A DNA stretch of 54,276 nt, taken from contig JAUYAT010000034.1 of the NCBI GenBank assembly GCA_030693295.1, positions 1 to 54,276 on the forward strand, given 5' to 3'. The position numbers and the translations under genes are program-made. The notes below the pieces were generated by a model, which searched no databases, was not told where the DNA came from, and worked only from the letters and a program-made list of their open reading frames with translations. Shown piece after piece: positions 29,887-46,841 of the stretch. Positions within the stretch are counted from its first letter, which is position 1; each line of letters opens with the position of its first letter. This DNA is from a bacterium. GTDB lineage: Bacteria > Patescibacteriota > Patescibacteriia > Patescibacteriales > VMTK01.

Positions 29887-30012
29887 GATATTAAATTAAA
29901 AAATATTTACTCTCATATTTTAACATATTGATTTTAACTTGACAAATGCAAATTAAAATTAATATTACATCATAAGAAAATAGATAAAGCAAATATAAAA
30001 TTTATAAAAAAA

Positions 30013-30040
30013 CACTAAGTTTCCGATCGGAAATTTAGTG
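30013..30040. terminator. hairpin terminator downstream of ftsZ / end of gas vesicle cluster
   Basis: CACTAAGTTTCCGATCGGAAATTTAGTG near-perfect palindrome in an AT-rich gap. Confidence 0.7.
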
Positions 30041-30064
30041 CCTAAATTATATTATAACAATTAT

Positions 30065-31063
30065 TTAATCCTTGAAGCCGGCGGCAATCACTGTAATTTT
30101 GATCGCTCCCTCGGGAACACTCTTATCATAAATCGCGCCAAAAATAATTTTTGCGTCTGGATCGGCGGAGGCGGTAATAATCTTTGCCGCTTCATTAATC
30201 TCCGAAAGAGTAAGGTCGACTCCGCCGGCAGCTGCAAAAAGGATGCCCTGCGCGCCATCAATAGAAATATCGAGCAATGGAGAGCTGATCGCTTTCTTGG
30301 CGGCCTCAACCGCGCGTGTGTCTCCTGTGGCCTGTCCGATCCCTATAATCGCCAGGCCTGCTTCGGCCATAATGGTTCGGATGTCGGCAAAATCAACATT
30401 AATGATTCCTGGTTTAAGAATAAGTTCGGAAATTCCTTGAATCGCGTTTTTTAATACATCGTCACACAAAGCAAAAGTATTTTTGAGGGTAGTATTTTTA
30501 TTGCTCAAGGCAAGGAGCCGGTTATTGGGAATCACAATAACGGTATCTACTGCATTAATAAGCCGTTCAAGCCCGTCTTCAGCTATTCTTGCGCGTTGCG
30601 CTCCCTCAAACGAAAAGGGTTTGGTGACCACCGCGATACTTAAAGACCCCTGGTTTTTTGCGGTTTCCGCAATAATTGGCGAGGCGCCGGTGCCGGTTCC
30701 CCCGCCTAATCCGCAGGTTATAAACACTAAATCCGCCCCTTTCAGGGCATCCTGGATTTCGCTTTTAGTTCCTTTGGCGGCTCGACAACCAATTTCGGGG
30801 TTCATCCCCGCGCCCAATCCCTTGGTAAAATTTTTGCCAATATGTATTTTTTTGTCCGCCTGGTTGCGGTGAAGATCCTGCATATCGCAATTTACCGCAA
30901 TAAAATCAACTCCGCTAACGCCGGAGTTAATCATGTGATCAATCGCATTGCCCCCTGAGCCGCCGACGCCCACCACTTTGATATTGGCCCCGAATCGCAT
31001 TTCGGGATTCAACGCCTCGCGAGCGCCGGAATTATTTACTTCAGCTTTTGTCGCAGGAGTCAT
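30065..31063 (-). CDS. ftsZ: FtsZ-family GTPase lacking a C-terminal tail
   Basis: IKVVGVGGSGGNAIDHM; GLGGGTGTGASPIIAE tubulin signature; ends at GAIKITVIAAGFKD. Confidence 0.92.
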   Translation of the reverse strand: MTPATKAEVNNSGAREALNPEMRFGANIKVVGVGGSGGNAIDHMINSGVSGVDFIAVNCDMQDLHRNQADKKIHIGKNFTKGLGAGMNPEIGCRAAKGTKSEIQDALKGADLVFITCGLGGGTGTGASPIIAETAKNQGSLSIAVVTKPFSFEGAQRARIAEDGLERLINAVDTVIVIPNNRLLALSNKNTTLKNTFALCDDVLKNAIQGISELILKPGIINVDFADIRTIMAEAGLAIIGIGQATGDTRAVEAAKKAISSPLLDISIDGAQGILFAAAGGVDLTLSEINEAAKIITASADPDAKIIFGAIYDKSVPEGAIKITVIAAGFKD

Positions 31064-31085
31064 AAAATTCCAAGTGAATTATCAC

Positions 31086-31403
31086 TTATTTTCTTTTGGC
31101 GCGTGATTTTGGCGACTCTAATTTTGCAATCCTTTTTTGCAATTTTACATTTTCCTTCTCAAGCTCGCTTTCTTTATATTTAGTGTTCAGGTAAGAGTCC
31201 GTCTCCCACCAATTGATGCCGATTTGTTGGGCTTTGTCAACGGAAGCAATAAGCAGTCGTATCTTAATCGTCAAAAGCTCAACATCAGCTAATTTAATCT
31301 GAATATCTCCCGCAATGACAATGCCCTTATCCAAAACGCGCTCTAAAATATCGGCTAAGTTTGTCGATTGAATGGAATGGACTATTTGTTGGTTATTGCT
31401 CAT
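31086..31403 (-). CDS. gvpJ: GvpA-family minor gas vesicle protein (GvpJ/M/S-like)
   Basis: LADILERVLDKGIVIAGDIQIKLADVELLTIKIRLLIASVDKA. Confidence 0.8.
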   Translation of the reverse strand: MSNNQQIVHSIQSTNLADILERVLDKGIVIAGDIQIKLADVELLTIKIRLLIASVDKAQQIGINWWETDSYLNTKYKESELEKENVKLQKRIAKLESPKSRAKRK

Positions 31404-31412
31404 AATTTTTAT

Positions 31413-31500
31413 TTACCCCGTTAGAAAATTTATTTTTGATGAATCTTTAGAGAATAATTTTTCAGGAAGTAATGAATGTTGATTTTCTAACGGGGTTTAC
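31413..31500. repeat. TIR element (~88 bp) ACCCCGTTAGAAAAT...ATTTTCTAACGGGGT
   Basis: Terminal inverted repeats; overlaps the stop codon of the GvpK fusion gene. Confidence 0.65.
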
Positions 31501-32078
31501 ATTAAATTCCCTAATGGTCCGAGGTCTAAATTTAATTCTTCGTCCTCTAATCCAAATATGGCTTTCATCTCTTCAATTTTTTTATCTAAGGCCTTGAAAG
31601 TCAGGCCGAGTTTTTGAATTTCAACCTCAGAAAGATTGCCTTTTGTGATTCTACGTTTCGCTTCTCTATACATCAAGTCCTTTATCAGCTTCACGAGGGT
31701 TAAGACTAATTGGGCGATTCCTTTTTCGGCTTTTTCCGGATTAGCGGCTTCAATTATTCCGGGTATGTTCCTTTCCGCTCTCTCTATTTCTTGCTCCAAA
31801 CTTCTGATATACTCCTCGTCTTCTTTACTAACCGCTCCACCGAAAGAATCGTCTCCCCTTCGCAAAACTTCTGCTCGACTAATGGAAGTAATGAGAAGTT
31901 TAAGGCCGATAAATATAAGATCTACATCCGCAACTCTAATAACCACCTCACCGTCCAAAACCGCTCCTTTTTCTAAAACTTTATCTAAAGCATCTATTAA
32001 AGTAACCCTTTCCTCTATGGGCGGTCTTTCTGAAGTCGCAATATTTGCTAATGTTTTTACCCCGTTAGAAATTTTCAT
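31497..32078 (-). CDS. GvpA/J/S-like domain fused to GvpK
   Basis: N-terminal TLIDALDKVLEKGAVLDGEVVIRVADVDLIFIGLKLLITS; C-terminal GIAQLVLTLVKLIKDLMYREAKRRI...GLTFKALDKKIEEMKAIFGLEDEELNLDLGPLG. Confidence 0.85.
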   Translation of the reverse strand: MKISNGVKTLANIATSERPPIEERVTLIDALDKVLEKGAVLDGEVVIRVADVDLIFIGLKLLITSISRAEVLRRGDDSFGGAVSKEDEEYIRSLEQEIERAERNIPGIIEAANPEKAEKGIAQLVLTLVKLIKDLMYREAKRRITKGNLSEVEIQKLGLTFKALDKKIEEMKAIFGLEDEELNLDLGPLGNLM

Positions 32079-32143
32079 AATTTTTCTCTTATTACACTCG
32101 CTATAAATCTTATCTGCCGAGTATTGATTTCTAATGGGGTGAA
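32058..32143. repeat. TIR element (~86 bp) overlapping the start of the GvpK fusion gene
   Basis: ACCCCGTTAGAAATT...TTTCTAATGGGGT; encodes N-terminal ISNGVK. Confidence 0.6.
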
Positions 32144-32163
32144 TTTTGGGGGTGCTTCATAAA

Positions 32164-32997
32164 TTACACAAAGTTATAAGGAGGCCATGGGCCGCTTGAT
32201 TCAAAAATAAAACCTATTTTTTCATATTCGGCCCGCAACTTTTGCATCTCCTTTTGGAACTTATCAACCTTTTCTTTTTTTACAAGGAATGCCCCGTTAA
32301 AAATCATCGGATCGTTTCTTTGAGTTAATTCTTTTCCGAGAATTCTGTTTTCTTTTAATTCTTCAGCTAACCCCTTGAGCTTTTCAAGAAAAAGAGGGAT
32401 GTAATTATTATTTATAGAATTTTTCGCCTCTCTTTTAACCATTTCATTTATTTCCTCTTCTAAAAAATATTGTCTGCCGGCTGGCAAAGATTTAATTTCT
32501 TCAAGTTTGCTTTGGATCATTGGTGATTTCTTTTTAATTTCATTTTCAAGAAGTTGGGATTTCAAATAGATTTTCACCGATCGTTCCTCTTTTCCCTGCA
32601 AGCCGTCAAGAAGGCCTTTAAACTTTAAGTAATCTTTCTTTAAAGAACCTATTAAGCTCCCTTTATCCTTAAATATCGTCCCAAATTTCATGGGAATAAT
32701 CAGCCCATCAGAGTTATTCATCGCTGTCTCAATTGCCTTTTCATGCATCAGGGCTTTATCTTTTATCCATTCCAGATCCTCTCGCGCCCTTCTTTGAATT
32801 TCTTCTGACCCGAATTCCTTTAAAAAAACCTCGCTCACTACCGCCTCAATATCCTTATAAGGAATGGAGAAAACTTTTTCCCCGCCAATACTTTCACCAG
32901 TGTCTTTATTTGATAGTTTTTTTATTTTTACGGATGGGCTCGCCTCGCTGAAGCTTCGGCGAAGCGGGCAGATCCCATAAAGATAAAGTCCTTTCAT
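32164..32997 (-). CDS. gvpL: GvpF/GvpL family protein
   Basis: LYLYGICPL...FSIPYKDIEAVVSEV...HEKAIETAMNNSDGLIIPMKFGTIF...GPWPPYNFV. Confidence 0.88.
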   Translation of the reverse strand: MKGLYLYGICPLRRSFSEASPSVKIKKLSNKDTGESIGGEKVFSIPYKDIEAVVSEVFLKEFGSEEIQRRAREDLEWIKDKALMHEKAIETAMNNSDGLIIPMKFGTIFKDKGSLIGSLKKDYLKFKGLLDGLQGKEERSVKIYLKSQLLENEIKKKSPMIQSKLEEIKSLPAGRQYFLEEEINEMVKREAKNSINNNYIPLFLEKLKGLAEELKENRILGKELTQRNDPMIFNGAFLVKKEKVDKFQKEMQKLRAEYEKIGFIFESSGPWPPYNFV

Positions 32998-33048
32998 AAT
33001 TTCAGAATAAATTCTTTTTATAATTTCAGATTTTAATGAAAAAAGCTC

Positions 33049-33453
33049 TTACACTTCTGGATTCAGAGCCGTATCAACTCTTTTACGAAGATCAGTTCGT
33101 TTATAACTAATAATCTTCCCGCTCTCGTCAACTCGCACCTCATAAGCGCCCAAAACATCCATCCCGTCAGGAATCGATGCCTTCTCAATTACTTCTATAG
33201 TCGCTATCAACTCATTGCCCTCTTTTTTAAAGCCAATCGCCGACGGAGATTTAAACCCGGTTAAGTCGGCGAGTTCTTTTTTTGCTTTTTCCAGTATGTC
33301 TTTTGTAGCCATATTTTTGATCTTTTCACCCCGTTGATCCGCCAGCTGGCGGATTATTTGGGATTGATTTAGCGTTTTTTTCATATTTTTAATTTTAACT
33401 CCCTTATTGGACTTTTTCGACCTTTTGATTCCTTTTGTTTTCAATTGAACCAT
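33049..33453 (-). CDS. gvpO: GvpO family protein with variable N-terminus
   Basis: AKKELADLTGFKSPSAIGFKKEGNELIATIEVIEKASIPDGMDVLGAYEVRVDESGKIISYKRTDLRKR. Confidence 0.85.
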   Translation of the reverse strand: MVQLKTKGIKRSKKSNKGVKIKNMKKTLNQSQIIRQLADQRGEKIKNMATKDILEKAKKELADLTGFKSPSAIGFKKEGNELIATIEVIEKASIPDGMDVLGAYEVRVDESGKIISYKRTDLRKRVDTALNPEV

Positions 33454-33487
33454 AGATTTAGGATTATTTTTTATATTTTAATATCCA

Positions 33488-33706
33488 TCACGCGCGCCTC
33501 TCTTTTGCTTTCCGTATAGCCTCTAATCTCTTTAGTATCTCCTCCTCTCGTTTGATTAATTCTTCTTCGCTGATTTGATCTGTTTCAAAAAGGGTGCGGA
33601 CATTAAGAAGCTCGTCTTTCAGTTTTGATTCATCAGTAACTTCCCGCTCGGCTATTTCCTGCAGTTTCTCAGCTAGCCAGATTAAACCATCATCAATAAG
33701 AAACAT
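33488..33706 (-). CDS. gvpG: GvpG family protein
   Basis: FLIDDGLIWLAEKLQEIAEREVTDESKLKDELLNVRTLFETDQISEEELIKREEEILKRL. Confidence 0.85.
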   Translation of the reverse strand: MFLIDDGLIWLAEKLQEIAEREVTDESKLKDELLNVRTLFETDQISEEELIKREEEILKRLEAIRKAKERRA

Positions 33707-33709
33707 AAG

Positions 33710-34504
33710 TTAATTGAGGCTTATTTTTAAACCAACAAAGTTATACAAAGGAAAGGGGCCGGAACAGTTAAGCTTGGTGTTGGGAAAACTTTGAGCAAGT
33801 ATTCCTGCCCTTCGGCTAAATTCATCTTCTCCTCCTTTTTTTATTAAAAACGCGGCATTCAAAATCATATTTTCTCCAAAGAGTTGTTGCTCCTTAAGTT
33901 CTTCAGCTAAATCGCCGATGGCCTTGATTATATTTTGAGCTTCATCTTGCTTTCTTTTCTCTAATAATTTTCCAATAAATTCTCCCACGGCTATTTTCCG
34001 TTGATAGGTTAAGTGTGTTTTTTTTAACCGCTGAAGTTCTGGATTCTTGGCAATTTCTTGAAAAATAAATTGCATATTCGGCCAAAACGCTTTCAACCCC
34101 ACTTCTGTCTTGCCTTTAAATTTCTGGAGAAGTTCCTCAAATTCAGCCCTTCTTTCTTTAAGAATCTTCTTTATTTGATCTTCAGTATTAGCAATGTTGC
34201 TAAAGCTAAAAGGAAGAACATCATAATGCTTCATCACTTCCTCAATTGGTTTCTGGTGTGCAATAATGTGCTCTCGCCATAAAGGATAGTGATCGCATGA
34301 CGTATCGCTCACTATACAGGAAAGGTTTCCTTGATTAACCGCATAAGCGGCATTTCCTTCTAGGCCAACGAGATTTCCGCCCGAGGCGGATCCGCCTTTG
34401 GCGGAAAATCGATCTTTAGGAACTTTGCCTTTGATAATGCAGTGAAGATATTTTCCTGTTATGTTACTCACCCCGTTAGACATTTTTTGTTGTTTTTCTA
34501 ACAT
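33710..34504 (-). CDS. gvpF: GvpF/GvpL family protein
   Basis: GKYLHCIIKGK...YAVNQGNLSCIVSDT...HQKPIEEVMKHYDVLPFSF...CSGPFPLYNFV. Confidence 0.87.
   Translation of the reverse strand: MLEKQQKMSNGVSNITGKYLHCIIKGKVPKDRFSAKGGSASGGNLVGLEGNAAYAVNQGNLSCIVSDTSCDHYPLWREHIIAHQKPIEEVMKHYDVLPFSFSNIANTEDQIKKILKERRAEFEELLQKFKGKTEVGLKAFWPNMQFIFQEIAKNPELQRLKKTHLTYQRKIAVGEFIGKLLEKRKQDEAQNIIKAIGDLAEELKEQQLFGENMILNAAFLIKKGGEDEFSRRAGILAQSFPNTKLNCSGPFPLYNFVGLKISLN
34374..34409. repeat. in-frame palindromic element (TTTCCGCCCGAGGCGGATCCGCCTTTGGCGGAAAA) inside gvpF
   Basis: Encodes FSAKGGSASGGN; also at 39883, 41671, 42313. Confidence 0.8.
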
Positions 34505-34549
34505 AATAACTTCTCGAACTATATGTAATTAAGATGTCTAACGGGGCTC
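34468..34549. repeat. TIR element (~82 bp) overlapping the gvpF start
   Basis: ACCCCGTTAGACAT...ATGTCTAACGGGGC; encodes KMSNGVSN. Confidence 0.6.
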
Positions 34550-34570
34550 ATAATACTTTTTTTCTTTCTT

Positions 34571-34912
34571 TTATTCATTTGTCTGTTCAGCAGCCCAAAT
34601 TTGCTTTAGGGCAACGACCAATCCGGCGGCTGAAACAAAAGCAATGAAACTGTTCAAGGCCGGAGTAATGACGGGCGTCAATTTACCAAACTCTAAGCCG
34701 GCCACTCCCACCACCAGCAAGGTAATTACCGCAACTAAAAAGGGGGTGCTTTCCTTTTCTTTGATGTTCAGGAATCCCACGATAAGACCAAAAACAAAAA
34801 GGAGAACGGCTAAATTCGGTACAGCCACAAATCCAGCCAATATCGCTAAGACAATCCCGCCAAGAAACGCCCAATGACCAATGCGTGTTAAGCCCATATT
34901 TTTTAATTCCAT
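34571..34912 (-). CDS. small polytopic membrane protein (about 4 TM) adjacent to the ArsA-like ATPase
   Basis: 113 aa, strongly hydrophobic segments. Confidence 0.7.
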   Translation of the reverse strand: MELKNMGLTRIGHWAFLGGIVLAILAGFVAVPNLAVLLFVFGLIVGFLNIKEKESTPFLVAVITLLVVGVAGLEFGKLTPVITPALNSFIAFVSAAGLVVALKQIWAAEQTNE

Positions 34913-34954
34913 ATTTTTTAAATTCCTTTCAAAGTTTTTATTTATAGTCGACCT

Positions 34955-35893
34955 TTAATTGGAGAATAATTCTCCGGCTAAATTTTTTAAGTTTTTGATT
35001 CCTCTAATTTCTTCGGGGTGTAAAATAATTTCTGAAATGTTAAAATTTGCAAATTTTTTCTTGATTTCGTTGATGTATCTTTCCTGATTTTTCCTTCTTG
35101 ATTGGCAAAAATCGCATTTATTTTCGGGGAAGATATTGTTAATAATGATGTGGCTTGCCGGGATGCGCGTTTTTTCTAAATCCTTTACTAAATCTTCTGT
35201 TTCCAGAACTCCCATTGCTTCGGCGATGGTAACGACTATGAATTCTGTTTTGGCCGGATCCTGAAGAAGGCTCCTTACTTTTTTAACTGTTTTTTTCATC
35301 TCCAGAAGGAACTCATCGGCTTTTTCAATTTTTTTCTTCCCAGAGAATCGCTCTGTCATATAGTGATATTTCCAGCGCAAGCTGGCTAAAAATTTAATCC
35401 AGTTATCCAGAAGTTCGGGAAGAGCTAATAGCCGCAAAGTATGCCCCGTAGGCGCGGTATCAACTAAGTATAAGTCGTATTCTTTGCTATCCATAAAATC
35501 GGTTATTTTTTTCAGCCCCATAACCTCGTCTAATCCCGGGATATCAAGCTCAAACATTTCTCCCGCTTCTTGATCGGATAAATATGTGCCCTGATTTAAA
35601 ATATCTAAAATATCCTCGCCGTATTCTTTTTTAAATTCTTCAAGAACTTTCTTGGCATCAATTTCCATCGCCCACAGATTGGCAACGCCAGTAATTTTTA
35701 CGGGCTCATTGGACAATTTTTGTTCCAAACTATCTGCCAATGACGGCGCCGGATCAGTGGTAAAAATTAAGGTTTTGCGAGTCTTGGCAAAATGAACCGC
35801 TAACGCGCTCGCAATTGTTGTCTTGCCCACGCCGCCTTTTCCTCCGATTAAGATAAACTGCAAATTTTTATGCGTCAGATCGCTTAATGACAT
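34955..35893 (-). CDS. ArsA/Get3 (TRC40)-family ATPase
   Basis: FILIGGKGGVGKTTIASALAVHFA; FTTDPAPSLADSL; DTAPTGHTLRLLALPE; NNIFPENKCDFCQSRRKNQERYI. Confidence 0.92.
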   Translation of the reverse strand: MSLSDLTHKNLQFILIGGKGGVGKTTIASALAVHFAKTRKTLIFTTDPAPSLADSLEQKLSNEPVKITGVANLWAMEIDAKKVLEEFKKEYGEDILDILNQGTYLSDQEAGEMFELDIPGLDEVMGLKKITDFMDSKEYDLYLVDTAPTGHTLRLLALPELLDNWIKFLASLRWKYHYMTERFSGKKKIEKADEFLLEMKKTVKKVRSLLQDPAKTEFIVVTIAEAMGVLETEDLVKDLEKTRIPASHIIINNIFPENKCDFCQSRRKNQERYINEIKKKFANFNISEIILHPEEIRGIKNLKNLAGELFSN

Positions 35894-35911
35894 AAACGTT
35901 ATTATTCTTTA

Positions 35912-37021
35912 TTATTCTTTTTGCTGTTTCTTTGATTCATCCACTATGGCCGCGATTAAAGCGCCTTTAGTAACGCTGTGCAACGGTTGCGAGGCGAGCC
36001 GTATTTCTCCTAATTCAACAGGCATGGGGAATCTCTGCAGGGCTTCCTGAAACCGTTTGAGAAACCCTGTTGGCTTGGCAGTGCCTCCGGAAAGTATTAT
36101 TGTCAAAGGCCTTTCCAGATGTATAGCTGATTTCTCAAGCTCGGTTTTGAGATGTCCAACTACATAATCAAGCAAGATATCATAATAGATGGATAGCGCC
36201 TGTTCCATTCTTGAAAGATTTTCTCTTTTATCTAAATCCAAACAGGACTCTTTCCAACCGGTGACAATACTTACTGGCTCGCCCACGGCTCTGGCCGCCT
36301 GTTTATCTATCCAGTCTCCTCCGCGAGCAACACTGAAGGATAGAACAGGAATTGATAGGTTAGCCAAACAGACATTCACCATTCCGCCGCCGAAAGAAAA
36401 AGCCAGCCCGGTAAAGTTTTCTTCAGCCAGTTCAGAAAATACCACTGCCAAACCTTCATTGATCGGCTTCGGGGCGTAGCCAAGACTTGAGAGAAAACCG
36501 TCAATAATGCGCTGATGATAAAGAACGTCAAAATCAGCATCAATCGGCTGGGCCGGAACTGAATAATAAACTGTTTCACCCGCCTGATGATGAGAACCGA
36601 CAGCGCTGGCAATCAGCAGCTTAATAATGGGAAGAGCGTCTTTTTCTTTGGGACTAATTACCCCCTGCTCTAACGGCCGCCTGACATTGCGCTGAAACAA
36701 ATTTGCGAAGCGCAGCGCCTCATTACCAACAACATAAAATTGGTCTCCATTTCGGATATACTTCACCTCGTCTCTGGCAAATACTTCTTTAATGTAATCA
36801 CTGGCTGGCAGGTCAAAAAAGGCATCTCGTTCTATTCTAAACACGACCTCATTGCCGATTTTTTCAGCAGCATAGATAAAGGCGGTGCCAACATCTAATC
36901 CCTTTCCGATCTGCAATGTTTGTGCCGCTTGAATTTTCTTGGCTTGTTTGGGAACAAGTATTTTGGCGCGAGATTTCATTCTGGTTTGGTGTTTTGATTT
37001 TGCTTTTGATTTTTTATTCAT
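35912..37021 (-). CDS. actin/Hsp70-fold ATPase
   Basis: KGLDVGTAFIYAA (phosphate 1), LAFSFGGGMVNVCLA (phosphate 2), TIILSGGTAKPTGFLKRFQEAL (adenosine motif). Confidence 0.8.
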   Translation of the reverse strand: MNKKSKAKSKHQTRMKSRAKILVPKQAKKIQAAQTLQIGKGLDVGTAFIYAAEKIGNEVVFRIERDAFFDLPASDYIKEVFARDEVKYIRNGDQFYVVGNEALRFANLFQRNVRRPLEQGVISPKEKDALPIIKLLIASAVGSHHQAGETVYYSVPAQPIDADFDVLYHQRIIDGFLSSLGYAPKPINEGLAVVFSELAEENFTGLAFSFGGGMVNVCLANLSIPVLSFSVARGGDWIDKQAARAVGEPVSIVTGWKESCLDLDKRENLSRMEQALSIYYDILLDYVVGHLKTELEKSAIHLERPLTIILSGGTAKPTGFLKRFQEALQRFPMPVELGEIRLASQPLHSVTKGALIAAIVDESKKQQKE

Positions 37022-37054
37022 ATTTTGTTATACGAATTATTTAATCTGTAATTT

Positions 37055-37438
37055 TCAACTTTTTGCGGTTGTCAGTCGTTTAAGGCTTTTTTGTATCGAG
37101 CGAGCGTCTGCCACTTCAGTGGTTGGGCCCTTGCCTAAATTATGCTCAGTGAAACGGGGCTCTCCGGCCATAAATTCTCTACCTGCCCCGTGGCATCCCG
37201 AAGGGATTGCTTCGGGGTTGATAAAATGAATTTTATGCTCCAATAACGACCTTCCACTGGCGGTTAAAATGAATACATTATTGGCGATCTTTTTAATTAA
37301 TTTCTGGTTTAGTAATTCCCTGGAAACCAAAGAGGCATAATCAGAACTCAAGCCCGTCTCTTTGCTAATTATCCGCATAGAGCAACGGCCTCCTAATTGA
37401 TAGATAATATTTAATATTTCCAATTCTCTTGAAGTCAT
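37055..37438 (-). CDS. small winged-HTH DNA-binding protein
   Basis: MTSRELEILNIIYQLGGRCSMRIISKETGLSSDYASLVSRELLNQKLI. Confidence 0.65.
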   Translation of the reverse strand: MTSRELEILNIIYQLGGRCSMRIISKETGLSSDYASLVSRELLNQKLIKKIANNVFILTASGRSLLEHKIHFINPEAIPSGCHGAGREFMAGEPRFTEHNLGKGPTTEVADARSIQKSLKRLTTAKS

Positions 37439-37758
37439 ACTGATTGAGATTTGAGCGCATCGCTCATTTCCTTATCTAATTCTTTTAATTTATCTTTCAC
37501 CTTGCTAAGCTCGTTTCTTCTATTTTCTAATTGCTTTTTCTTTTCAATGAGATTCAACCAAATCTTTTCCATCTTGACTATTTCTTCATCAACCGCCGCT
37601 GTTTCCCGCTCTATGGAAGCCAATTTTTGAACAAATTCTTCGGCAAATTTATTACTTGCCCCGTTAGAAAAATTTTCTCTAACTTTATTAACCTGCACCA
37701 CCTGATTTCTGGCGGCCTTGAGCGTTTCAATGGTTTTCGGATCAAATTGTGGATTCAT
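37435..37758 (-). CDS. coiled-coil hypothetical protein of the gas vesicle cluster
   Basis: Heptad-rich; overlaps the HTH gene by 4 nt. Confidence 0.55.
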   Translation of the reverse strand: MNPQFDPKTIETLKAARNQVVQVNKVRENFSNGASNKFAEEFVQKLASIERETAAVDEEIVKMEKIWLNLIEKKKQLENRRNELSKVKDKLKELDKEMSDALKSQSV

Positions 37759-37763
37759 ATTGA

Positions 37764-38966
37764 TTACTTTTCTTTAACAATGATTGAATTTTCTACATCT
37801 TCTTTCTTAAAAGAACAAAATTGTTCTTTCTCTATCGCAAGAGCCGAAAAATAATGCTGGCAATAAACAGTTAAAACCTTGTTGGCAGCCACTATATTTT
37901 TCATTTTTCTGGCCGCTTCCTCTATGACCACCTGGTCATTTTTGTATTCATGTTTATCCGGATGATGCTCTGCGGCCAACTTATGGTAAGCGTCTCTTAT
38001 CTCTGGCAAGGCCGCGGATTCTCCGAGCCTCAAAGTTTTTCTGGCGTTATCAACTAAATCAAAATTTCCTACGCTGAGATTAATAACCGTGAAGCTGTAG
38101 GGCGCCATCGGCCCGATATATTTAAATTTCAGCTCATTTTTGTATTTTTCCGCCAGCTTATTTAATTGGAATTCTAACAGCGATTCTTCTCCTTTGCCTA
38201 TTAAAAATGAATAGTTCATAAGCATTTCTTTGTTTACCGCGCGGCGAGTTTGCTCTGCTTCGGGGTTTGCTCCCCCCTTATTGGCATAGAGAAGCTTGCT
38301 CGCCTCGCTGAAGCTCTGGCGAAGCGGGCTGGCGTTAAAATCTGGGAAAGAGGATGCGAGATACTTTAAAATATCTGCTGTATATTCTTTTCGGTATGCC
38401 TCAATAGCTTCAAATATGCGCTTGCCTAATTTTATTTTAGATGCCAACCCCAAAATTCCGCCTTTTGACTCTGCTTCCTTTTTCAATTTTTGAATCGCGA
38501 CATTTTCCCGGACTATCTTCTCAAGCATATTCTTTTCGTTCCAAAATATTTGAACAACAAACTCTGCTTTTCCGGCAATTCTTTCCAGAGCAATCTTAAA
38601 TTGTAGGTATGCCTTGGTTAAAATATTACTAATTTCCTCAATATCTTCCGCAATCATTCCAAACCTCATGGGAATAACATCGTGCTGTTTCATCAGGTTA
38701 ACATTCACCCGTTCATGTATTGCAACTAAATGGGTAAGCTCCTTTTTATCAAGCTTATCAAAATTAATAAAATAAGTGTTGCTGACCGCAACTGCTATCT
38801 CTCTGTAAGGGATGAAAATTATCTCGCGATTATTAATGCCAAACATCGCTTCTGATAAACGAAAATTATCAGAGGCCTGCCCCGTACCGTGCTTGCTCTG
38901 GTGCGGGGATGGCGTCTCTTTTGGATTCTTGATTATTGAATATATGTATTTTCTTTCTTCACTCAT
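37764..38966 (-). CDS. GvpF/GvpL family protein with C-terminal J-domain
   Basis: GvpL part KYIYSIIKNP...FIPYREIAVAVSNT...HERVNVNLMKQHDVIPMRFGMIA...GPMAPYSFTVINL; J-domain DNARKTLRLGESAALPEIRDAYHKLAAEHHPDKHEYK with HPD. Confidence 0.87.
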   Translation of the reverse strand: MSEERKYIYSIIKNPKETPSPHQSKHGTGQASDNFRLSEAMFGINNREIIFIPYREIAVAVSNTYFINFDKLDKKELTHLVAIHERVNVNLMKQHDVIPMRFGMIAEDIEEISNILTKAYLQFKIALERIAGKAEFVVQIFWNEKNMLEKIVRENVAIQKLKKEAESKGGILGLASKIKLGKRIFEAIEAYRKEYTADILKYLASSFPDFNASPLRQSFSEASKLLYANKGGANPEAEQTRRAVNKEMLMNYSFLIGKGEESLLEFQLNKLAEKYKNELKFKYIGPMAPYSFTVINLSVGNFDLVDNARKTLRLGESAALPEIRDAYHKLAAEHHPDKHEYKNDQVVIEEAARKMKNIVAANKVLTVYCQHYFSALAIEKEQFCSFKKEDVENSIIVKEK

Positions 38967-41230
38967 GCCAGGGGTTTATTTTTATTTATCTTGTTAGAAA
39001 TTTCATTTCCAACGGGATTTATTGCTTCTTCAAAATGCTTCGCGGTTATTTTAAAATTATTATCTGGTTGAACGAAATTCTCTCTCACCGCGGACATGGC
39101 GGCCTTTTTGCAAATCAGCTCTATGTCTGCGCCCGTCAGGCCTTCTGTTAGTTTGGCAAATTTCTTTAAGCTAACAGCGCGATCTAACGGCTTATCTTTC
39201 GTGTGAATACTGAATATGGCGCATCGGCACTCTTCGCTTGGCTTGGGGACTTCAAGCAGGAAATCAAATCTTCCTGCGCGAAGCAAAGCCGGATCAACCA
39301 TGTCTAATTTATTTGTCGCTCCTAAAACTACTACGGCTTTTAATTCCTCAATGCCGTCTAACTCCGCCAGAAACTGGCTGACTACTCTTTCCGTAACATG
39401 CGAGTCCGCGCCGCTTCCGCGTTTCGCCACTAAACTGTCTATCTCATCAAAAAAAACTATGCAAGGGGAAGCCAGCTTGGCCTTTTTAAACACTTCCCGG
39501 ATTCCCTTTTCCGATTCGCCGATATATTTTGAAAAAAGCTCCGGTCCTTTAATAGAAATGAAATTTACCCCCAGTTCAGTGGCGACGGCCTTGGCCAAAA
39601 GCGTTTTCCCGCATCCGGGCGGCCCATAGAGCATTATTCCTTTAGACGGCTTGAGTTTTACATAACCCAGCGCCTCGCTGTATTTTAACGGCCATTCAAT
39701 CACTTCCTTAAGCGTTTGTTTAATACACTCAAGCCCCCCTACATCTTCCCATTTGACGCTGGGAATCTCTGAAAAAACTTCGCGCAGAGCCGAGGGCTCC
39801 ACCTCTTTCAGGGCTTCTCTAAAATGTTCGCCGGTAACCTCTATTTTACGGAGCTTCTCATACGGAATGTACCACTCTTTTTCTCCGCCAGAGGCGGATC
39901 CGCCTTGGGCGGAAAACTCAATCTCTGGCATGATTTCACGCAACGCCGACATTGCCGCTTCTCGGCAGAGTGCCTCAAGATCAGCTCCGACAAATCCGTG
40001 AGTGATTTCAGCCAGCTTGTCCAAGTCAACCCCATCTGCTAAGGGCATGCCCCTTGTATGTATTTCCAGTATTGCTTTTCTGGCGTTTCTGTCTGGAATG
40101 CCAATCACAATTTCCCGATCAAATCGTCCCGGCCTGCGCAGGGCCGGATCAAGCGTATTGGGAATATTAGTTGCTCCAATCACTATTAACTGGCCGCGCG
40201 ATTCCAAACCGTCCATCAAGGCCAAAAGTTGCGCCACCACTCGTCTTTCCACCTGCTTCTCGCCGCCCATTTCTTCGCGCTTGGGCGCAATCGCGTCAAT
40301 TTCATCAATAAAAAGTATGGCCGGGGCGTTGGCTTTTGCTTCTTCAAATATTTCTCGCAGCCGGCCCTCTGACTCGCCATAAAACTTTCCCATTATTTCC
40401 GGTCCCGAAATGTGGGTAAAATAGGCATCGGTCTCATTCGCCACTGCCCGGGCAATTAATGTCTTGCCGCATCCCGGCGATCCGTGTAAAAGCACTCCCT
40501 TGGGCGGATCGATTCCTAATCTCTCAAAAAGCTCGGGGTGTTTTAGCGGAAGTTCAATCATTTCTCTAATTCTCCGTATTTCTTTTCCTAATCCGCCAAT
40601 GTCTTCATAGGTTATACCAATCCCTTGTTTTTCTTTGGCCATGCCCTTTAGCTTTATAAAAGTAAAGGGTTTTATCAAAACTACTTTGGCTGGACTCGCC
40701 TCGCTCGCCTCGCTGAAGCTTTGGCGAAGCGGGCTGAAGCTTTGGCGAAGCGGGTCGGTATCTTCTACTAAAAAATCCTGGGCCCTTGTTCCAAAAAGCG
40801 TGGCTCTTATTTTACTGCCTTTTATTACCGGGGTTCCGTCAAGTATCTCGGCCAAATATTGGGCATCCTCTTTTTTGAATGAAGCGCCGGTATTTAAGGG
40901 GGATAGGACGAGTACTCGCGCTTCTTCGTAAGAAACCTTCTGAATTTCCACCTTTTCATCCAAACCAATTTTCAAATTCTCTCTGGCAATGCCATCTATT
41001 TGAATAATGCCTTTTCCTCGATCCTCTGGATAAGCGGGCATCATCCTTGCTACAGCTTCTCTTCCCTTTTTCCCCTCTGATTTTTGCGGTGTCAATCTGA
41101 TAATATCTCCTGTATCGGCCTGAATTTTTGAAAAATACTCGGGGTCAATTCTGGCAATGGCTCTGCCCACATCTTTGCTTTGGGCTTCGGTTACTTTAAG
41201 GATTAGTGATCCGTTATTCGGTGACTTCAT
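38963..41230 (-). CDS. Cdc48/VAT-type tandem AAA+ ATPase
   Basis: N-domain plus two AAA modules: GVLLHGSPGCGKTLIARAVANET and GIMLYGPPGCGKTLLAKAVATEL, Walker B AILFIDEIDAIAPKR / CIVFFDEIDSLVAKRG. Confidence 0.93.
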   Translation of the reverse strand: MKSPNNGSLILKVTEAQSKDVGRAIARIDPEYFSKIQADTGDIIRLTPQKSEGKKGREAVARMMPAYPEDRGKGIIQIDGIARENLKIGLDEKVEIQKVSYEEARVLVLSPLNTGASFKKEDAQYLAEILDGTPVIKGSKIRATLFGTRAQDFLVEDTDPLRQSFSPLRQSFSEASEASPAKVVLIKPFTFIKLKGMAKEKQGIGITYEDIGGLGKEIRRIREMIELPLKHPELFERLGIDPPKGVLLHGSPGCGKTLIARAVANETDAYFTHISGPEIMGKFYGESEGRLREIFEEAKANAPAILFIDEIDAIAPKREEMGGEKQVERRVVAQLLALMDGLESRGQLIVIGATNIPNTLDPALRRPGRFDREIVIGIPDRNARKAILEIHTRGMPLADGVDLDKLAEITHGFVGADLEALCREAAMSALREIMPEIEFSAQGGSASGGEKEWYIPYEKLRKIEVTGEHFREALKEVEPSALREVFSEIPSVKWEDVGGLECIKQTLKEVIEWPLKYSEALGYVKLKPSKGIMLYGPPGCGKTLLAKAVATELGVNFISIKGPELFSKYIGESEKGIREVFKKAKLASPCIVFFDEIDSLVAKRGSGADSHVTERVVSQFLAELDGIEELKAVVVLGATNKLDMVDPALLRAGRFDFLLEVPKPSEECRCAIFSIHTKDKPLDRAVSLKKFAKLTEGLTGADIELICKKAAMSAVRENFVQPDNNFKITAKHFEEAINPVGNEISNKINKNKPLA
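39883..39916. repeat. in-frame palindromic element in the Cdc48-like gene
   Basis: CTCCGCCAGAGGCGGATCCGCCTTGGGCGGAAAA encodes FSAQGGSASGGE. Confidence 0.8.
40692..40755. repeat. tandem in-frame palindromic element in the Cdc48-like gene
   Basis: ACTCGCCTCGCTCGCCTCGCTGAAGCTTTGGCGAAGCGGGCTGAAGCTTTGGCGAAGCGGGT encodes DPLRQSFSPLRQSFSEASEASP. Confidence 0.8.
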
Positions 41231-41916
41231 TTTGTTTTGGTTAATTTCAATTCCAATATCCCATTTTTGAAATTCATCTCCCGAGATTCAAAATCAACTT
41301 TGGCCGGCAGCAAAATCTCTTTGGCGTATTTTCGGTCATTGCTCCCCGCTTCGCCCGCGAAGCGAGGCGAGTCCGCCTCAAATAAAAGAATATCCCCGCC
41401 TGCCATCGGCTTTGCCTCAGGCGAATGGCGGGCAGACTTTTTCAAATCGACTTTAATGCTTTTTTCGTCAATACCCGGGAGTTCGGCGATTATCAAAATA
41501 TGATCTTTCTCGTCAAACACATCAACGATTGGTTCTCTCGTCTCTGATACCTTCGGACCTTCTTTAGTTTTTTTAATATTCCCGAATGGTTCAACTTTTG
41601 TTCTTTGTCCCAGACCAGTCCGAACAGTAAAACCATATACTCCATGAATATCTTGGCGTCCCCCAAATCCTTTTCCGCCAAAGGCGGATCCGCCTCGGGC
41701 GGAAATCCGGCCGCTTCTTTTCAGTTCACCGCCGACTTCCTCGGCCCGTTCCGCTAAATCAATAAATTTCCCCAATCCTTTAAGCAAACCGCCGACAAAA
41801 GGTATATCGTCAAGCGATATTTCATCCTTGCCCTCCGACTTGTCCTCCGTAGCTTTAGCGTAGGAGGAAGCCTTGGCGAAGGAGGGTTTTCCCTTTTTTT
41901 GTTCTTCTTTTTTCAT
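41227..41916 (-). CDS. gvpH: Hsp20/alpha-crystallin-like protein (GvpH-like)
   Basis: REPIVDVFDEKDHILIIAELPGIDEKSIKVDLKK...EILLPAKVDFESREMNFKNGILELKLTK. Confidence 0.82.
   Translation of the reverse strand: MKKEEQKKGKPSFAKASSYAKATEDKSEGKDEISLDDIPFVGGLLKGLGKFIDLAERAEEVGGELKRSGRISARGGSAFGGKGFGGRQDIHGVYGFTVRTGLGQRTKVEPFGNIKKTKEGPKVSETREPIVDVFDEKDHILIIAELPGIDEKSIKVDLKKSARHSPEAKPMAGGDILLFEADSPRFAGEAGSNDRKYAKEILLPAKVDFESREMNFKNGILELKLTKTK
41671..41706. repeat. in-frame palindromic element in the Hsp20 gene
   Basis: TTTTCCGCCAAAGGCGGATCCGCCTCGGGCGGAAAT. Confidence 0.8.
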
Positions 41917-42368
41917 AAAATTTTGAAAGTTCCCAAAAAATCCTTGAAGAAGAATTTTCTTCCTTTCTTTATCTCTGCTTTTGCTTTTCTTATTTTCGGC
42001 GCGGCTGGCTTTATGCCCCTTGTCTTGCTCCTTGATTTCTTAATGGGCTGGCTCTTTTTTCTTCTTGTCTTTGGAACCGAAGATTCGACTATCAATGGAT
42101 GTCTCTTTTCTTCAACAAACCCCTTGCCCTGGCACAGCAAACAATAGAGATTGGCGCCTGCTTTCTTGCCTCTGCCCCCGCATTCCTTACATATATTATA
42201 CGGCTGGTTTACAGTAACACGGCCACTGCCTTTGCAGACAATGCAAGACAGACGCTCCGCGCCCGGCTGTACTCCCTTGCCTTGGCAAAAAGCGCATGGG
42301 AATTTTTTAGTTTTTTCCGCCAAGGGCGGATCCGCCTCTGGCGGAGAATATTTTTTTTTCATTTTCAT
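41913..42368 (-). CDS. stand-alone DnaJ-type zinc-finger protein (four CxxCxGxG)
   Basis: CAFCQGKG, CIVCKGSG, CKECGGRG, CLLCQGKG; no J-domain. Confidence 0.82.
   Translation of the reverse strand: MKMKKKYSPPEADPPLAEKTKKFPCAFCQGKGVQPGAERLSCIVCKGSGRVTVNQPYNICKECGGRGKKAGANLYCLLCQGKGFVEEKRHPLIVESSVPKTRRKKSQPIKKSRSKTRGIKPAAPKIRKAKAEIKKGRKFFFKDFLGTFKIL
42313..42348. repeat. in-frame palindromic element in the zinc-finger gene
   Basis: TTTTCCGCCAAGGGCGGATCCGCCTCTGGCGGAGAA encodes SPPEADPPLAEK. Confidence 0.78.
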
Positions 42369-42670
42369 TAATACTCTAAAATAAATTTCCCATCTCGGTC
42401 TTTCCCAAGTCCAAACTTTGGCATTTTCTTAGAAACCACAATCTTACTGGGTTTATTGACCTTTCTTTTTGCCGCCTCAAGTTTGCCTTTTCCGCGAAAC
42501 ACGGCCAGTTTTGAATGCAGAAAGTCAATATAATCATGCCGGCCGAGATTATTGCAAATAAGCCTGGCATAATCGGTGCTGATCCTCGCCTCCCTCGCAA
42601 TAGTGTCAATGGATGCCTCTCCGCCCCAATCCCAAAGAATTTCTAATACTTTAAGTTCTGTTCCTGACAT
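42368..42670 (-). CDS. small winged-HTH protein
   Basis: MSGTELKVLEILWDWGGEASIDTIAREARISTDYARLICNNLGRHDYI; same architecture as 37055-37438. Confidence 0.65.
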   Translation of the reverse strand: MSGTELKVLEILWDWGGEASIDTIAREARISTDYARLICNNLGRHDYIDFLHSKLAVFRGKGKLEAAKRKVNKPSKIVVSKKMPKFGLGKDRDGKFILEY

Positions 42671-42671
42671 G

Positions 42672-42983
42672 TTAATAGTCTAAAACGGTATGGCTGCCCG
42701 ATTTTGAATAGGTTTCTCTAATTTTACTCAATCCCTTGCTCCCAGCAGTGGCAATTTTAAGAAGTTTAGCCATGCCCGTATTAATTACGGTTAAATTTTT
42801 ATCGATCTGCTTCCCTTTTTTTTGCAATCTTATTTTTTCTTTCTCAAGCCGGTCTCTCTTATTTTGACGCATATACAGGTCTAAAAAAGCCGACTTTGAT
42901 GAGTGAGGAATAGACCTTAGCCCGGTTGAACCCGCGCTTTTTAAGTCGTGGATCCCCGAGAGATTAGCGTTTATTTTTTCCAT
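42672..42983 (-). CDS. hypothetical coiled-coil protein of the gas vesicle cluster
   Basis: STGLRSIPHSSKSAFLDLYMRQNKRDRLEKEKIRLQKKGKQID; sits directly after gvpN. Confidence 0.6.
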   Translation of the reverse strand: MEKINANLSGIHDLKSAGSTGLRSIPHSSKSAFLDLYMRQNKRDRLEKEKIRLQKKGKQIDKNLTVINTGMAKLLKIATAGSKGLSKIRETYSKSGSHTVLDY

Positions 42984-43001
42984 AGATTTGTGTGTAATTA
43001 A

Positions 43002-43931
43002 TTAACAAAGTTTGGTGATTAATTCTCCTACTATTTTTCTCACCTTATTATGGTGATCTTGCGAGCCCAATCGCGTTGTTTCCGATGCCAATATATCCTG
43101 GGCTAACTGGCGGAACAAGCGGCTGGAAGCCAACACTGCGCCTCCGTTAGTCTTGAGGGACTTTGCCAGCATTATTGAGCCGCGAACAGTTGGCGCGAAT
43201 TCATATTCCCCGGAATCGCGAAGCGCTCGGACGATATTGACAATTTTCTCGGTATCTTTTCGATCTAGACCGGATTTGGCTTGAGTGATGGCAATTTCCG
43301 TATTCTTGTCAAAGTGCCTTAAATCCATAGTTACCATTCTATCGCGCAACGCGTCTTGAGCTTTATTTGTCCCCGCGTATTCTTCAGGATTTGAGGTGAA
43401 AATAGCCACAAACTGCGGATGAGCCTTAAGATAATAAGATTCCCGCCCTTGTCTGGCCATCGGCAAATCCATCACCCCTTCTTGCAAGATGGAAAGCAAG
43501 GTGTTGTTTGCTTCCGGCCGGGATCGAGTGAACTCGTCATAAATAAGGGTAAAGCCGTTTTTTACCGCGATAGTCAGACGATTATCCATCCACTGTTTTG
43601 AGAAGTTCTCTTCTTTCTTAAGGACGCTCTGAATAAAATTGTCTCTTAAATATTTGTAACGGTAGCCATGCTCTCCGCCAATAAGATCAGAGGTAGAATA
43701 TTCCTCATCGCCATGAATCAACACTGCCGGACGGCCAATCTTTTGCGCCAAGTGCAAAGCCAAGGTGGTTTTTCCTGTTCCTGAAGCGCCTCTTAAATGC
43801 ACGGGAAAACCCGCCTTAATATAATTCAACGCCCGCTTGCTAATATCCTTGATATACGAAGTCTCCACAAAGCCAGCCACTGGCCGTGGCTCAATAATTG
43901 CTTGTTCTTCATCTGATGATAAATAAGACAT
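43002..43931 (-). CDS. gvpN: gas vesicle AAA+ ATPase GvpN
   Basis: YIKAGFPVHLRGASGTGKTTLALHLAQKIGRPAVLIHGDEEYSTSDLIGGEHGY; FTLIYDEFTRSRPEANNTLLSILQEGVMDLP; AIFTSNPEEYAGTNKAQDALRDRM. Confidence 0.95.
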   Translation of the reverse strand: MSYLSSDEEQAIIEPRPVAGFVETSYIKDISKRALNYIKAGFPVHLRGASGTGKTTLALHLAQKIGRPAVLIHGDEEYSTSDLIGGEHGYRYKYLRDNFIQSVLKKEENFSKQWMDNRLTIAVKNGFTLIYDEFTRSRPEANNTLLSILQEGVMDLPMARQGRESYYLKAHPQFVAIFTSNPEEYAGTNKAQDALRDRMVTMDLRHFDKNTEIAITQAKSGLDRKDTEKIVNIVRALRDSGEYEFAPTVRGSIMLAKSLKTNGGAVLASSRLFRQLAQDILASETTRLGSQDHHNKVRKIVGELITKLC

Positions 43932-44052
43932 ATTGGTAATTCAATTAAAATTAATGTTCAAGTCGGAATCTTGCCAGAATCTTGCGCGATTCCGAATATT
44001 TCGACCCGCCTGCCATCGCTATGCTCAGGCATTGCGGGCAGGCCTTTAGAAT

Positions 44053-44715
44053 TTATTTAGCTTTATGCTTTTTTGCTTTTTTTGCTGCTTTTTTTGGTTC
44101 CTCGGCTTCTTCTCCCGCCGCAATCGCTCTCTCCTGCTTCCTTAATACCCCCCAGTTTGCGCGCGCTTCTTTTCGCTCTTCTGCGTAATCGCCTAACAAA
44201 TCCGCTACATGCTTTTGGATAACAGGTATTTGCGACTCTATATCTTTCATCATAGTCTTGAAATCAACCATACGGGTTTGTTCGCTTTTAGCCAGCAAAT
44301 CCTTCAAGTCCTTTGCTATTTCTTTCATTTCCTTGTCAAAGCGACTAAGCAACTCTTTCACATCAGCCGCTCTTTCTTTGCTTTCTCCGCTAAATCTTAC
44401 AATAAGTTTCCTGGAATCTTCTAATACATCAGCTACTCTTGCTTGAATGTCCTTTATCATTTTACTGAAATCTGCCATTCTGTCCTTTTCGCTCTTATCC
44501 AAAAAATTCTTCAGTTCCTGCGCCACTTCCTTTAATTCTTTGTCAAATCGCGAAAGAAGCTCGCGCGTGTCCGCTTTATTATCTATTAATTCCTTATCAA
44601 GTCGCGAAAGAAGCTCGCGCGTGTCCGCTTTATTATCTCTAACGAATTGCAAGCGATCTTTTGTGGAAGTTTTAATATCGCTTACTAAACTTTTCATTTC
44701 TTGTGCGTATGACAT
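44053..44715 (-). CDS. GvpC-like helical repeat protein
   Basis: DNKADTRELLSRxDKEL repeats (18 aa period), related ERAADVKELLSRFDKEMK, DRMADFSKMIKDI / TRMVDFKTMMKDI. Confidence 0.55.
   Translation of the reverse strand: MSYAQEMKSLVSDIKTSTKDRLQFVRDNKADTRELLSRLDKELIDNKADTRELLSRFDKELKEVAQELKNFLDKSEKDRMADFSKMIKDIQARVADVLEDSRKLIVRFSGESKERAADVKELLSRFDKEMKEIAKDLKDLLAKSEQTRMVDFKTMMKDIESQIPVIQKHVADLLGDYAEERKEARANWGVLRKQERAIAAGEEAEEPKKAAKKAKKHKAK
44548..44638. repeat. tandem direct repeat, 54 bp period
   Basis: TCGCGAAAGAAGCTCGCGCGTGTCCGCTTTATTATCT at 44548 and 44602. Confidence 0.9.
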
Positions 44716-44818
44716 ATTTTTTTGTTAAATTGATTAATGTTGATTAGTTAATGCTAATTGTTTTGTCGACCTTTAGTTATTTCTTTAGTTATTTATAAAA
44801 ATTTATTTGTTTGAATTG

Positions 44819-45091
44819 TTAAACCTTCAAAAACCCCGCCTCTCCTAAATACTTCTCATACTCCGGAAAGAAATCCAACGCCACTTTCTTTAATTCTAAA
44901 TGTTCAAGATAGTATTTTCTGATCTTCGTAAGTTGTTCCGCTCGCTTTCTCGCCGCAGTCCTCCGCCAGCTGGCGGACTGCGCGACGGAGCGGAAATATT
45001 GTTCTTTTTCGCGTTTCTCTTTTTTTAATTTCCTTTCTTCATCCCATATTTCTCTCATTGTTCTTATTGTTTTTGTTTTGATAATAGGCAT
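44819..45091 (-). CDS. basic coiled-coil hypothetical protein of the gas vesicle cluster
   Basis: Strong Lys/Glu helix; carries an in-frame palindrome (SVAQSASWRRTAA). Confidence 0.55.
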   Translation of the reverse strand: MPIIKTKTIRTMREIWDEERKLKKEKREKEQYFRSVAQSASWRRTAARKRAEQLTKIRKYYLEHLELKKVALDFFPEYEKYLGEAGFLKV

Positions 45092-45216
45092 TTGAATGAT
45101 TTTATTTAGGCTCTGCTGATTTTCACCGATTATTCACCTCTTGAGAGGGGCTAAGGATGGATTATTGAAAAATTAACAGATTGAATGCGTTAATTCGTTA
45201 ATAAATAATTCCTTTT

Positions 45217-45597
45217 CTATATCGCTCCCAATCCATAACAACTCGCGCAAGGAAGATCGCTTCCCGGTTCTCTTCCGTCGCCTTTGCACTTAGCGCATCT
45301 TTTCTCCCCCCTGATCTTCGTTACCATGCCTTTCCCGCCGCATACGGCGCAAGGCATTCGGTGGTTAAAGAAAATGCCGCTTCCTTTGCAATAGGGACAA
45401 ATTTCCACCGGCTCCACCACTTGAACCGCGCCCCTGCCATTGCAAACTTGGCAGTTGGAAAGTTTTGACGGAACCTCAAACGGATCCTTGCCCTTTCCTT
45501 TGCAAAAAGCGCAAGTGATTGTTCGGTAGTTGCAAGCAGATTTTTTGGTTGTCTTTTTTGCCATAAATTTTAATTTATAAATCCTTTTTTTTATCAA
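45217..45597 (-). CDS. stand-alone DnaJ-type zinc-finger protein (six CxxCxGxG)
   Basis: CAFCKGKG, CQVCNGRG, CPYCKGSG, CAVCGGKG, CAKCKGDG, CASCYGLG. Confidence 0.82.
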   Translation of the reverse strand: MIKKRIYKLKFMAKKTTKKSACNYRTITCAFCKGKGKDPFEVPSKLSNCQVCNGRGAVQVVEPVEICPYCKGSGIFFNHRMPCAVCGGKGMVTKIRGEKRCAKCKGDGREPGSDLPCASCYGLGAI

Positions 45598-46147: not shown

Positions 46148-46358
46148 AAATATCTCTCAAAAGTTCAAAATGCAAAAATTAAAATGTAAAATGGCAAATT
46201 AAAATTATAAAATTATTCTGATTAGATTCATTTTTATATTTTAATTTTTGCATTTATATTGTCTAAGGCACGCTCTCGATTTTACCCATATGGGTTGTGG
46301 GAGGACTTTATAGTGCTTCTACCAATCTAAAGGGCGCCCTATCCAATATGCTCTAATA

Positions 46359-46565
46359 TTAAGCGGCGCTGGCAGTCAAACCGACTGCTTCAGCGTACTT
46401 CAACCAGGTCTCAACTGAAGCAATCACTACTCGGGCTTCAATCGCCAGAAGCTCAATTCCCACTAACGAAATTCTTACCCAAGCGTCAATCACCACGCCC
46501 TTGTCAAGAATGCGGTCAATCACTTCCACCAAGCTGGAGCTGGACATTGATTTTTCTACGGCCAT
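46359..46565 (-). CDS. gvpA: major gas vesicle structural protein GvpA
   Basis: [59 protein letters not shown]. Confidence 0.97.
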
Positions 46566-46601
46566 ATGTTTTTTTTTAATTTTAATTAATTTTTTATCTT
46601 T

Positions 46602-46631
46602 GCCCTAATCGACCTTTTTAAATTTTAGGGC
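46602..46631 (-). promoter_or_regulatory. small hairpin with GGTCGA motif just upstream of gvpA
   Basis: GCCCTAA-TCGACCTTTTTAAATT-TTAGGGC. Confidence 0.4.
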
Positions 46632-46710
46632 TTGCTTACTCGCTTATTTAAGTGACATCGGACTGTTGCCATTGACGAAATCTTTAAATGATGCTAAGGT
46701 ATTTAGTTGA

Positions 46711-46819
46711 TTTAGATATTTGAATGGGGTGTAAGGAGTGGTTGGAATTTATAGGAAGTGGTTGGAACTAGTCCTCCTACATCTATCTGGCCCTCCTTCA
46801 CCCCACTCAGATATCTAAA
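46711..46819. repeat. long imperfect inverted repeat in the gvpA upstream region
   Basis: TTTAGATATTTGAATGGGGTGTAAGGAG versus CTCCTTCACCCCACTCAGATATCTAAA. Confidence 0.75.
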
Positions 46820-46841
46820 CTGTATTTTTTACAGCGCAAAT

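Follow-up and report, generated by a model that had tools for sequence, protein, structure and literature searches.

A volactin-family actin encoded in a patescibacterial gas vesicle gene cluster, with a possible role in handling gas vesicles

Introduction

Volactin (VolA, HVO_2015) of Haloferax volcanii forms dynamic, tip-anchored filaments in vivo and acts in the change from rod to disk (PMC10869688), in an organism that does not itself produce gas vesicles (PMC10869688; PMC12186497). The family itself is already known, and has so far been described from salt-loving archaea. Here we analyse a volactin gene from a bacterium, located within a cluster of gas vesicle (gvp) genes on contig JAUYAT010000034.1; the stretch analysed, positions 1 to 54,276 of the contig, is called the window. 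The arrangement of gas vesicles in the cell and their inheritance by daughter cells are little understood. None of the known gvp clusters treated in a review contains an actin (PMC9501494), and no publication tying an actin, a volactin or a MamK-like protein to gas vesicles was found in a literature search outside which most subscription journals lay; in one near match MamK appears in the references only (PMC10185304).

Gene, family and predicted fold

The gene occupies an open reading frame (ORF) at positions 35912-37021 and encodes 369 residues. A preliminary description of the window had reported this frame and its approximate length correctly, but the strand is corrected here to minus, since the same frame on the plus strand has many stops. 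The protein matches Pfam model PF25216 (Volactin) over residues 40-358 and profile positions 3-321 of 321, with 314 bits against a cutoff of 35 and an E-value of 1.4e-93, and on this profile evidence clearly belongs among the volactin actins. It consists of a basic, disordered N-terminal tail (residues 1-36) followed by a complete actin core. Three motifs of the actin/Hsp70 superfamily, already noticed in the preliminary description, are present as phosphate-1 (GLDVGTA, residues 41-47), phosphate-2 (SFGGGMVN, residues 209-216) and adenosine (SGGTAKPTGF, residues 311-320), and are kept across 42 aligned relatives, in which G41, D43, G45, T46, S209, G211, G213, N216, G312, G313, T314, P317, G319 and F320 are invariant. 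Because the match to PF25216 is so strong, these motifs are not due to chance.

Scores against the NCBIfam models for MamK (NF040964, 24.3 bits, cutoff 400) and MreB (NF010539, 14.5 bits, cutoff 293) fall below threshold. The window volactin has no match to the Hsp70 profile PF00012 up to an E-value of 0.1, none among the PHROGs phage families, and none in the PDB when its single sequence is used as the query. A profile of the volactin family searched against the PDB returns 5jyg, 5ljv and 5ljw first (E about 8e-9), the latter two being MamK by their entry titles, with MreB next.

An AlphaFold2 model of the window volactin, built from 42 volactins, has a mean predicted local distance difference test (pLDDT) score of 85.7 and a predicted template modelling score (pTM) of 0.82, with disorder limited to the N-terminal tail. 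Among solved structures, Foldseek ranks MreB and the MamK filament highest, followed by BeeR, crenactin and eukaryotic actin, with E-values of 1e-12 to 1e-15 for these five; Hsp70s are also among the matches but rank lower, as expected of the superfamily. The predicted structure is that of an actin, as the preliminary description had proposed from the motifs.

The host is a patescibacterium with a genome of 1.06 Mb in 62 contigs, and the window copy is its sole volactin. Type IV pilus, murein and CTP synthase genes, also in the window, fit a bacterium; a search of the genome did not find a 16S gene, so that the host is placed by the neighbouring genes and by its relatives. Rfam gave no match in the window. 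Two strong MreBs are encoded elsewhere in the genome (contigs C31 and C46, about 450 bits with PF06723, a model that does not list the window volactin), and a DnaK-type protein on another contig. The window volactin is therefore an extra actin rather than a housekeeping protein, and the idea that it is the MreB of this cell was rejected.

Distribution and association with gas vesicle genes

Scanning GTDB genomes yielded 253 relatives, and the statements on distribution rest on the best 80, which comprise 7 bacterial and 73 haloarchaeal loci. Together with the window and one further locus (L182), and counting the identical L024 and L025 once, the bacterial set amounts to eight distinct volactins, from Patescibacteria, Acidobacteriota and Nitrospirota. 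The closest relative of the window volactin, at 79% identity, is from another patescibacterial metagenome-assembled genome (MAG). An unrooted tree has a single branch parting bacterial from haloarchaeal volactins, with a value of 100 in the Shimodaira-Hasegawa-like approximate likelihood ratio test (SH-aLRT), although some bacterial branches are long. Identity ranges from 49 to 79% among the bacterial proteins, against at least 74% among the haloarchaeal ones.

Within this sample, volactins occur in bacteria only alongside gvp genes. All seven of the other bacterial volactin genomes carry GvpA-family genes, compared with four of ten haloarchaeal volactin genomes sampled, the remaining six having none. 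The gvp genes are on the contig of the volactin itself in six cases (the window, L023, L025, L027, L049 and L182). The contig of locus L026, 5.8 kb long, still shows the Hsp20-Cdc48-wHTH portion of the cluster (wHTH, winged helix-turn-helix), and in L024 and L028 the contig stops shortly beyond volactin, in the direction in which the cluster would be expected. No gvp genes were found near volactin in any of the 73 haloarchaeal genome loci or in three plasmid loci, some of which have short flanks; those queries are able to pick up gvp clusters of haloarchaea, and one closed haloarchaeal chromosome (L034, genome G428) has both volactin and gvp, more than 1 Mb apart. The co-occurrence with gvp genes that the preliminary description had suggested looking for is thus consistent in bacteria. 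Orthologues located away from gvp genes, which it had named as evidence to the contrary, were found among the haloarchaea only, and every bacterial orthologue with adequate flanking sequence is near gvp genes.

In a sample of the phylum, the host genome was the only one of 384 with gvp genes, so these are rare in this phylum. Elsewhere in the order and class PF25216 also gives weak matches; two of them were inspected (L018 and L019), and these resemble PilM-type pilus proteins and were rejected as volactins.

Three observations concern further copies or arrangements. Besides L023 itself, its genome encodes another, divergent volactin, 49% identical to that of the window, in a second gvp cluster (L182, contig C21 of genome G419). 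A patescibacterial gvp cluster on contig C49 of genome G422 (L136) lacks the Hsp20-Cdc48-coiled-coil-wHTH-volactin block, which is on another contig of the same MAG; the MAG may hold two clusters or be a mixture of strains. In some haloarchaea (G593:C38, G613:C1, G633:C1, G638:C1) a second volactin-like match lies within a much longer frame of 780-1258 residues, which may be a fused gene or simply a frame left open by a high GC content.

Conserved neighbours of volactin

Upstream of the window volactin are a winged-helix gene, a coiled-coil gene and a gene for GvpL/F with a C-terminal J-domain. The order coiled-coil gene, wHTH gene, volactin is kept in every bacterial locus whose upstream sequence could be read (seven of seven), and in the acidobacterial locus L025 the coiled-coil and wHTH regions are fused in one ORF, about 440 bp from volactin. 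The GvpL-J gene precedes this triad in the window and in L023 and follows it in L027 and L049; because its side differs, the triad moves as a unit.

In its AlphaFold2 model the wHTH protein has a core (residues 3-73, pLDDT 93-97), a linker below 50 and a C-terminal helix (residues 113-124), with a similar tail motif in four homologues (for example LRLGKRIEKAASFLRR). The core is similar in fold to MarR regulators and also to AspA, a partition protein that binds the centromere of pNOB8. In ParR, the C-terminal helix binds ParM, and the predicted build of the wHTH protein suggests an adaptor of the ParR type. There are several wHTH genes per cluster, at least three in Acidobacteriota, and the protein may instead be a plain transcription regulator.

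Haloarchaeal volactins have a different partner. In 58 of 60 well-flanked haloarchaeal loci (for example L029:9009-9920) the gene before volactin encodes a long-tailed membrane protein with DUF7139 (PF23600). It is attractive to suppose from this arrangement that DUF7139 would be the membrane anchor of the tip-anchored Haloferax filaments, and that the bacterial operon would carry another adaptor for another cargo.

The gas vesicle cluster of the window

The features of the cluster are listed in Table 1. Volactin sits where the preliminary description had placed it, between the ArsA gene and gvp genes, with gvp genes on both sides.

Table 1. Features of the window in and around the gas vesicle cluster (G001, a genome of the same family as the host)
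Feature	Position	Strand	Evidence and remarks
GvpA/GvpJ-type shell protein	31086..31403	-	PF00741 1.4e-17
GvpA-family domain fused to GvpK	31497..32078	-	PF00741 7.1e-12 and PF05121 9.5e-26
GvpL/GvpF (1)	32164..32997	-	PF06386 1e-52
GvpO	33049..33453	-	PF05800 7.4e-18
GvpL/GvpF (2)	33710..34504	-	PF06386 1.5e-49
Small membrane protein, 113 aa	34571..34912	-	Kept in patescibacterial gvp clusters; 63% identity in G001, 62% in L182
ArsA/Get3-type ATPase	34955..35893	-	PF02374 3.7e-83; 18 bp after volactin
Volactin-family actin	35912..37021	-	369 aa; PF25216 E=1.4e-93; AlphaFold2 pLDDT 85.7; Foldseek top matches MreB and MamK
Winged-helix protein, 127 aa, proposed filament adaptor	37055..37438	-	Predicted wHTH core, disordered linker, C-terminal helix
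Coiled-coil protein, 107 aa	37435..37758	-	4-bp overlap with wHTH gene
GvpL/GvpF with C-terminal J-domain (HPD present)	37764..38966	-	PF06386 3.8e-47, PF00226 1.1e-7
Cdc48-type AAA+ ATPase with CDC48_N domain	38963..41230	-	Conserved in bacterial volactin/gvp loci
Hsp20-like, GvpH-type	41227..41916	-	PF00011 weak, 0.0015; position conserved
GvpN-type MoxR AAA+ ATPase	43002..43931	-	PF07728 3.1e-18; 37% identity to gene adjoining haloarchaeal gvpA (L110)
Third GvpA-family core	46419..46535	-	PF00741 6.4e-17; far end of cluster

Chaperone-like genes are numerous in the cluster. GvpL/F with a C-terminal J-domain recurs in four patescibacterial gvp clusters (the window, L023, L027 and L049), and two DnaJ zinc-finger-like proteins are encoded in that of the window (41913-42368 and 45217-45597). 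The ArsA/Get3-type ATPase and the small membrane protein (34571-35893) are found in these gvp clusters, with ArsA doubled in G001, and possibly handle hydrophobic GvpA or tail-anchored proteins. The acidobacterial cluster L025 contains an Hsp70/DnaK gene (4083-5892), split over two overlapping frames by a frameshift or an assembly error; this protein is conceivably a true Hsp70 partner for the gvp chaperones.

A second, short FtsZ (30065-31063, 332 residues, lacking the long C-terminal tail) is encoded on the same strand, starting 23 bp after the gvpA/J gene; the genome encodes its other FtsZ close to an FtsA-like gene, on contig C26. An FtsZ gene is likewise found downstream of gvpA on the same strand in genome G422 (L179, contig C119).

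Two families of 35-37-nucleotide repeats occur within the cluster, one at 34373, 39881, 41671 and 42313 and the other at 32935, 38295 and 40700. One of the families is palindromic (TTTCCGCCAAAGGCGGATCCGCCTCGGGCGGAAA). The repeats fall within the frames of gvpL, Cdc48, Hsp20-like and other genes, where they add short peptides. A further motif, CCCCGTTAGA, often forming hairpin arms with TCTAACGGGG, lies near gene starts at 31415-31508, 32059, 34470-34546 and 37658.

Discussion

By analogy with MamK and ParM, the window volactin could be a dynamic actin filament dedicated to gas vesicles and equipped with its own adaptor, serving to space, move or share out the vesicles; we give this proposal an even chance. 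More tentatively, the coiled-coil, wHTH and volactin genes may make up a cassette that moves and segregates gas vesicles, has spread among gvp-bearing phyla, and is sister to the archaeal shape actin volactin. Volactin would have been recruited to a gas vesicle operon, forming with the two upstream genes a three-gene cassette. The protein would bind and turn over ATP and polymerise into dynamic filaments, and the wHTH/coiled-coil pair would couple the ends or sides of these filaments to a cargo, namely gas vesicles or their assembly complexes. Filaments of this kind would act on vesicles, whether nascent or complete, by spacing, moving or sharing them out in a small cell and at its division; MamK does likewise for magnetosomes, and ParM for plasmids. 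The preliminary description had offered two options, a vesicle-positioning filament and an Hsp70-like protein that works with the GvpL J-domain. With MamK and MreB as the closest solved relatives, the first is probably the better one.

Several findings weigh against a vesicle-handling filament. The role established for the studied member of the family is in cell shape. Two gvp-bearing members of the same class, G187 (98% complete) and G361 (77%), have no volactin, and volactin is therefore not required for vesicle formation. The bacterial volactins are only eight, mostly from fragmentary assemblies. The fold of the wHTH protein fits MarR regulators no worse than AspA. In canonical actins the phosphate-2 position is usually aspartate; all 42 aligned volactins, including the haloarchaeal ones, have serine there, and the ATPase chemistry proposed here is accordingly tentative.

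Volactin filaments might instead act on the vesicle itself, as an assembly scaffold or morphogen that works with Cdc48, GvpN and the GvpLs to determine where vesicles nucleate, how wide or long they grow or how they bundle, the wHTH proteins then being ordinary regulators. The wealth of assembly and chaperone factors in the cluster (GvpN, Cdc48, Hsp20, J-domain GvpL, ArsA) is what such a role would lead one to expect, and the number of wHTH genes and their MarR-like fold suit regulators. We nevertheless think it unlikely: the gvp clusters that have been well studied produce vesicles with no actin (PMC9501494), the two class-mates have gvp genes but no volactin, and an adaptor is suggested by the constant order of the three genes and by their partial fusion in L025.

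A filament that reshapes the cell body as in Haloferax, with its gene in the gvp operon merely to couple the switching of shape to that of flotation, would agree with the rod-to-disk function of the sole volactin studied (PMC10869688). This seems distinctly unlikely to us: a general role in shape is less probable with two MreBs already in the genome, the haloarchaeal neighbour DUF7139 is not seen at the window locus, and the bacterial clade of volactins is tied to gvp genes.

An actin next to a winged-helix protein that has a linker, a C-terminal helix and a resemblance to AspA also recalls ParMRC and TubZRC, so that the cassette might partition the DNA bearing the gvp genes, as a former plasmid or mobile element, rather than the vesicles. 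Such a role is improbable, given that the window contig has ordinary chromosomal genes, that the cassette is embedded in the middle of an operon, and that no centromere-like iteron array is among the repeats listed for 30000-47000.

An Hsp70-like ATPase partnering the J-domain of GvpL would fit the superfamily fold and a J-domain kept in four patescibacterial loci, but we rejected it as barely credible, since the family match is to volactin and not to Hsp70, the closest folds are MreB and MamK, the protein is an actin core with no substrate-binding domain or other domain beyond it, a DnaK-type protein is encoded elsewhere in the genome, and the acidobacterial gvp cluster holds a separate Hsp70 besides its volactin.

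If a vesicle-handling filament is borne out, volactin would be a second actin, beside MamK, dedicated to a bacterial organelle; an archaeal actin would be placed in bacteria; and a portable cassette would be at hand with which to control gas vesicles, in use as imaging agents.

Comparison with known systems

The window protein and volactin of H. volcanii (PF25216) belong to the same family over the full core, with 41-46% identity to haloarchaeal members and the same invariant motifs, the phosphate-2 serine included. They differ in that the bacterial genes are in gvp operons, with coiled-coil and wHTH partners in place of DUF7139, and in the 10-40 additional N-terminal residues that the bacterial proteins carry ahead of GLDxGT. 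MreB shares the actin fold, with template modelling (TM) scores of about 0.6-0.7, but is only 17-20% identical, and two true MreBs are encoded elsewhere in the same genome.

As in ParMRC, TubZRC and the AspA system, the gene for a cytomotive filament adjoins that of a DNA-binding adaptor, both roles being putative here, and the wHTH protein is predicted to have the same succession of DNA-binding core, linker and C-terminal helix; unlike those systems, the genes are in a vesicle operon, and the wHTH protein is without demonstrated sequence homology to ParR or TubR. MamK differs from the window volactin in sequence (16% identity only, and 24 against 400 bits with NF040964) and in its cargo, the magnetosome being a membrane organelle and the gas vesicle a gas-filled protein shell. 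It is nonetheless the nearest solved relative by profile and among the nearest by fold, and like MamK the window volactin is encoded in an operon and would do an analogous job, the arrangement of an organelle.
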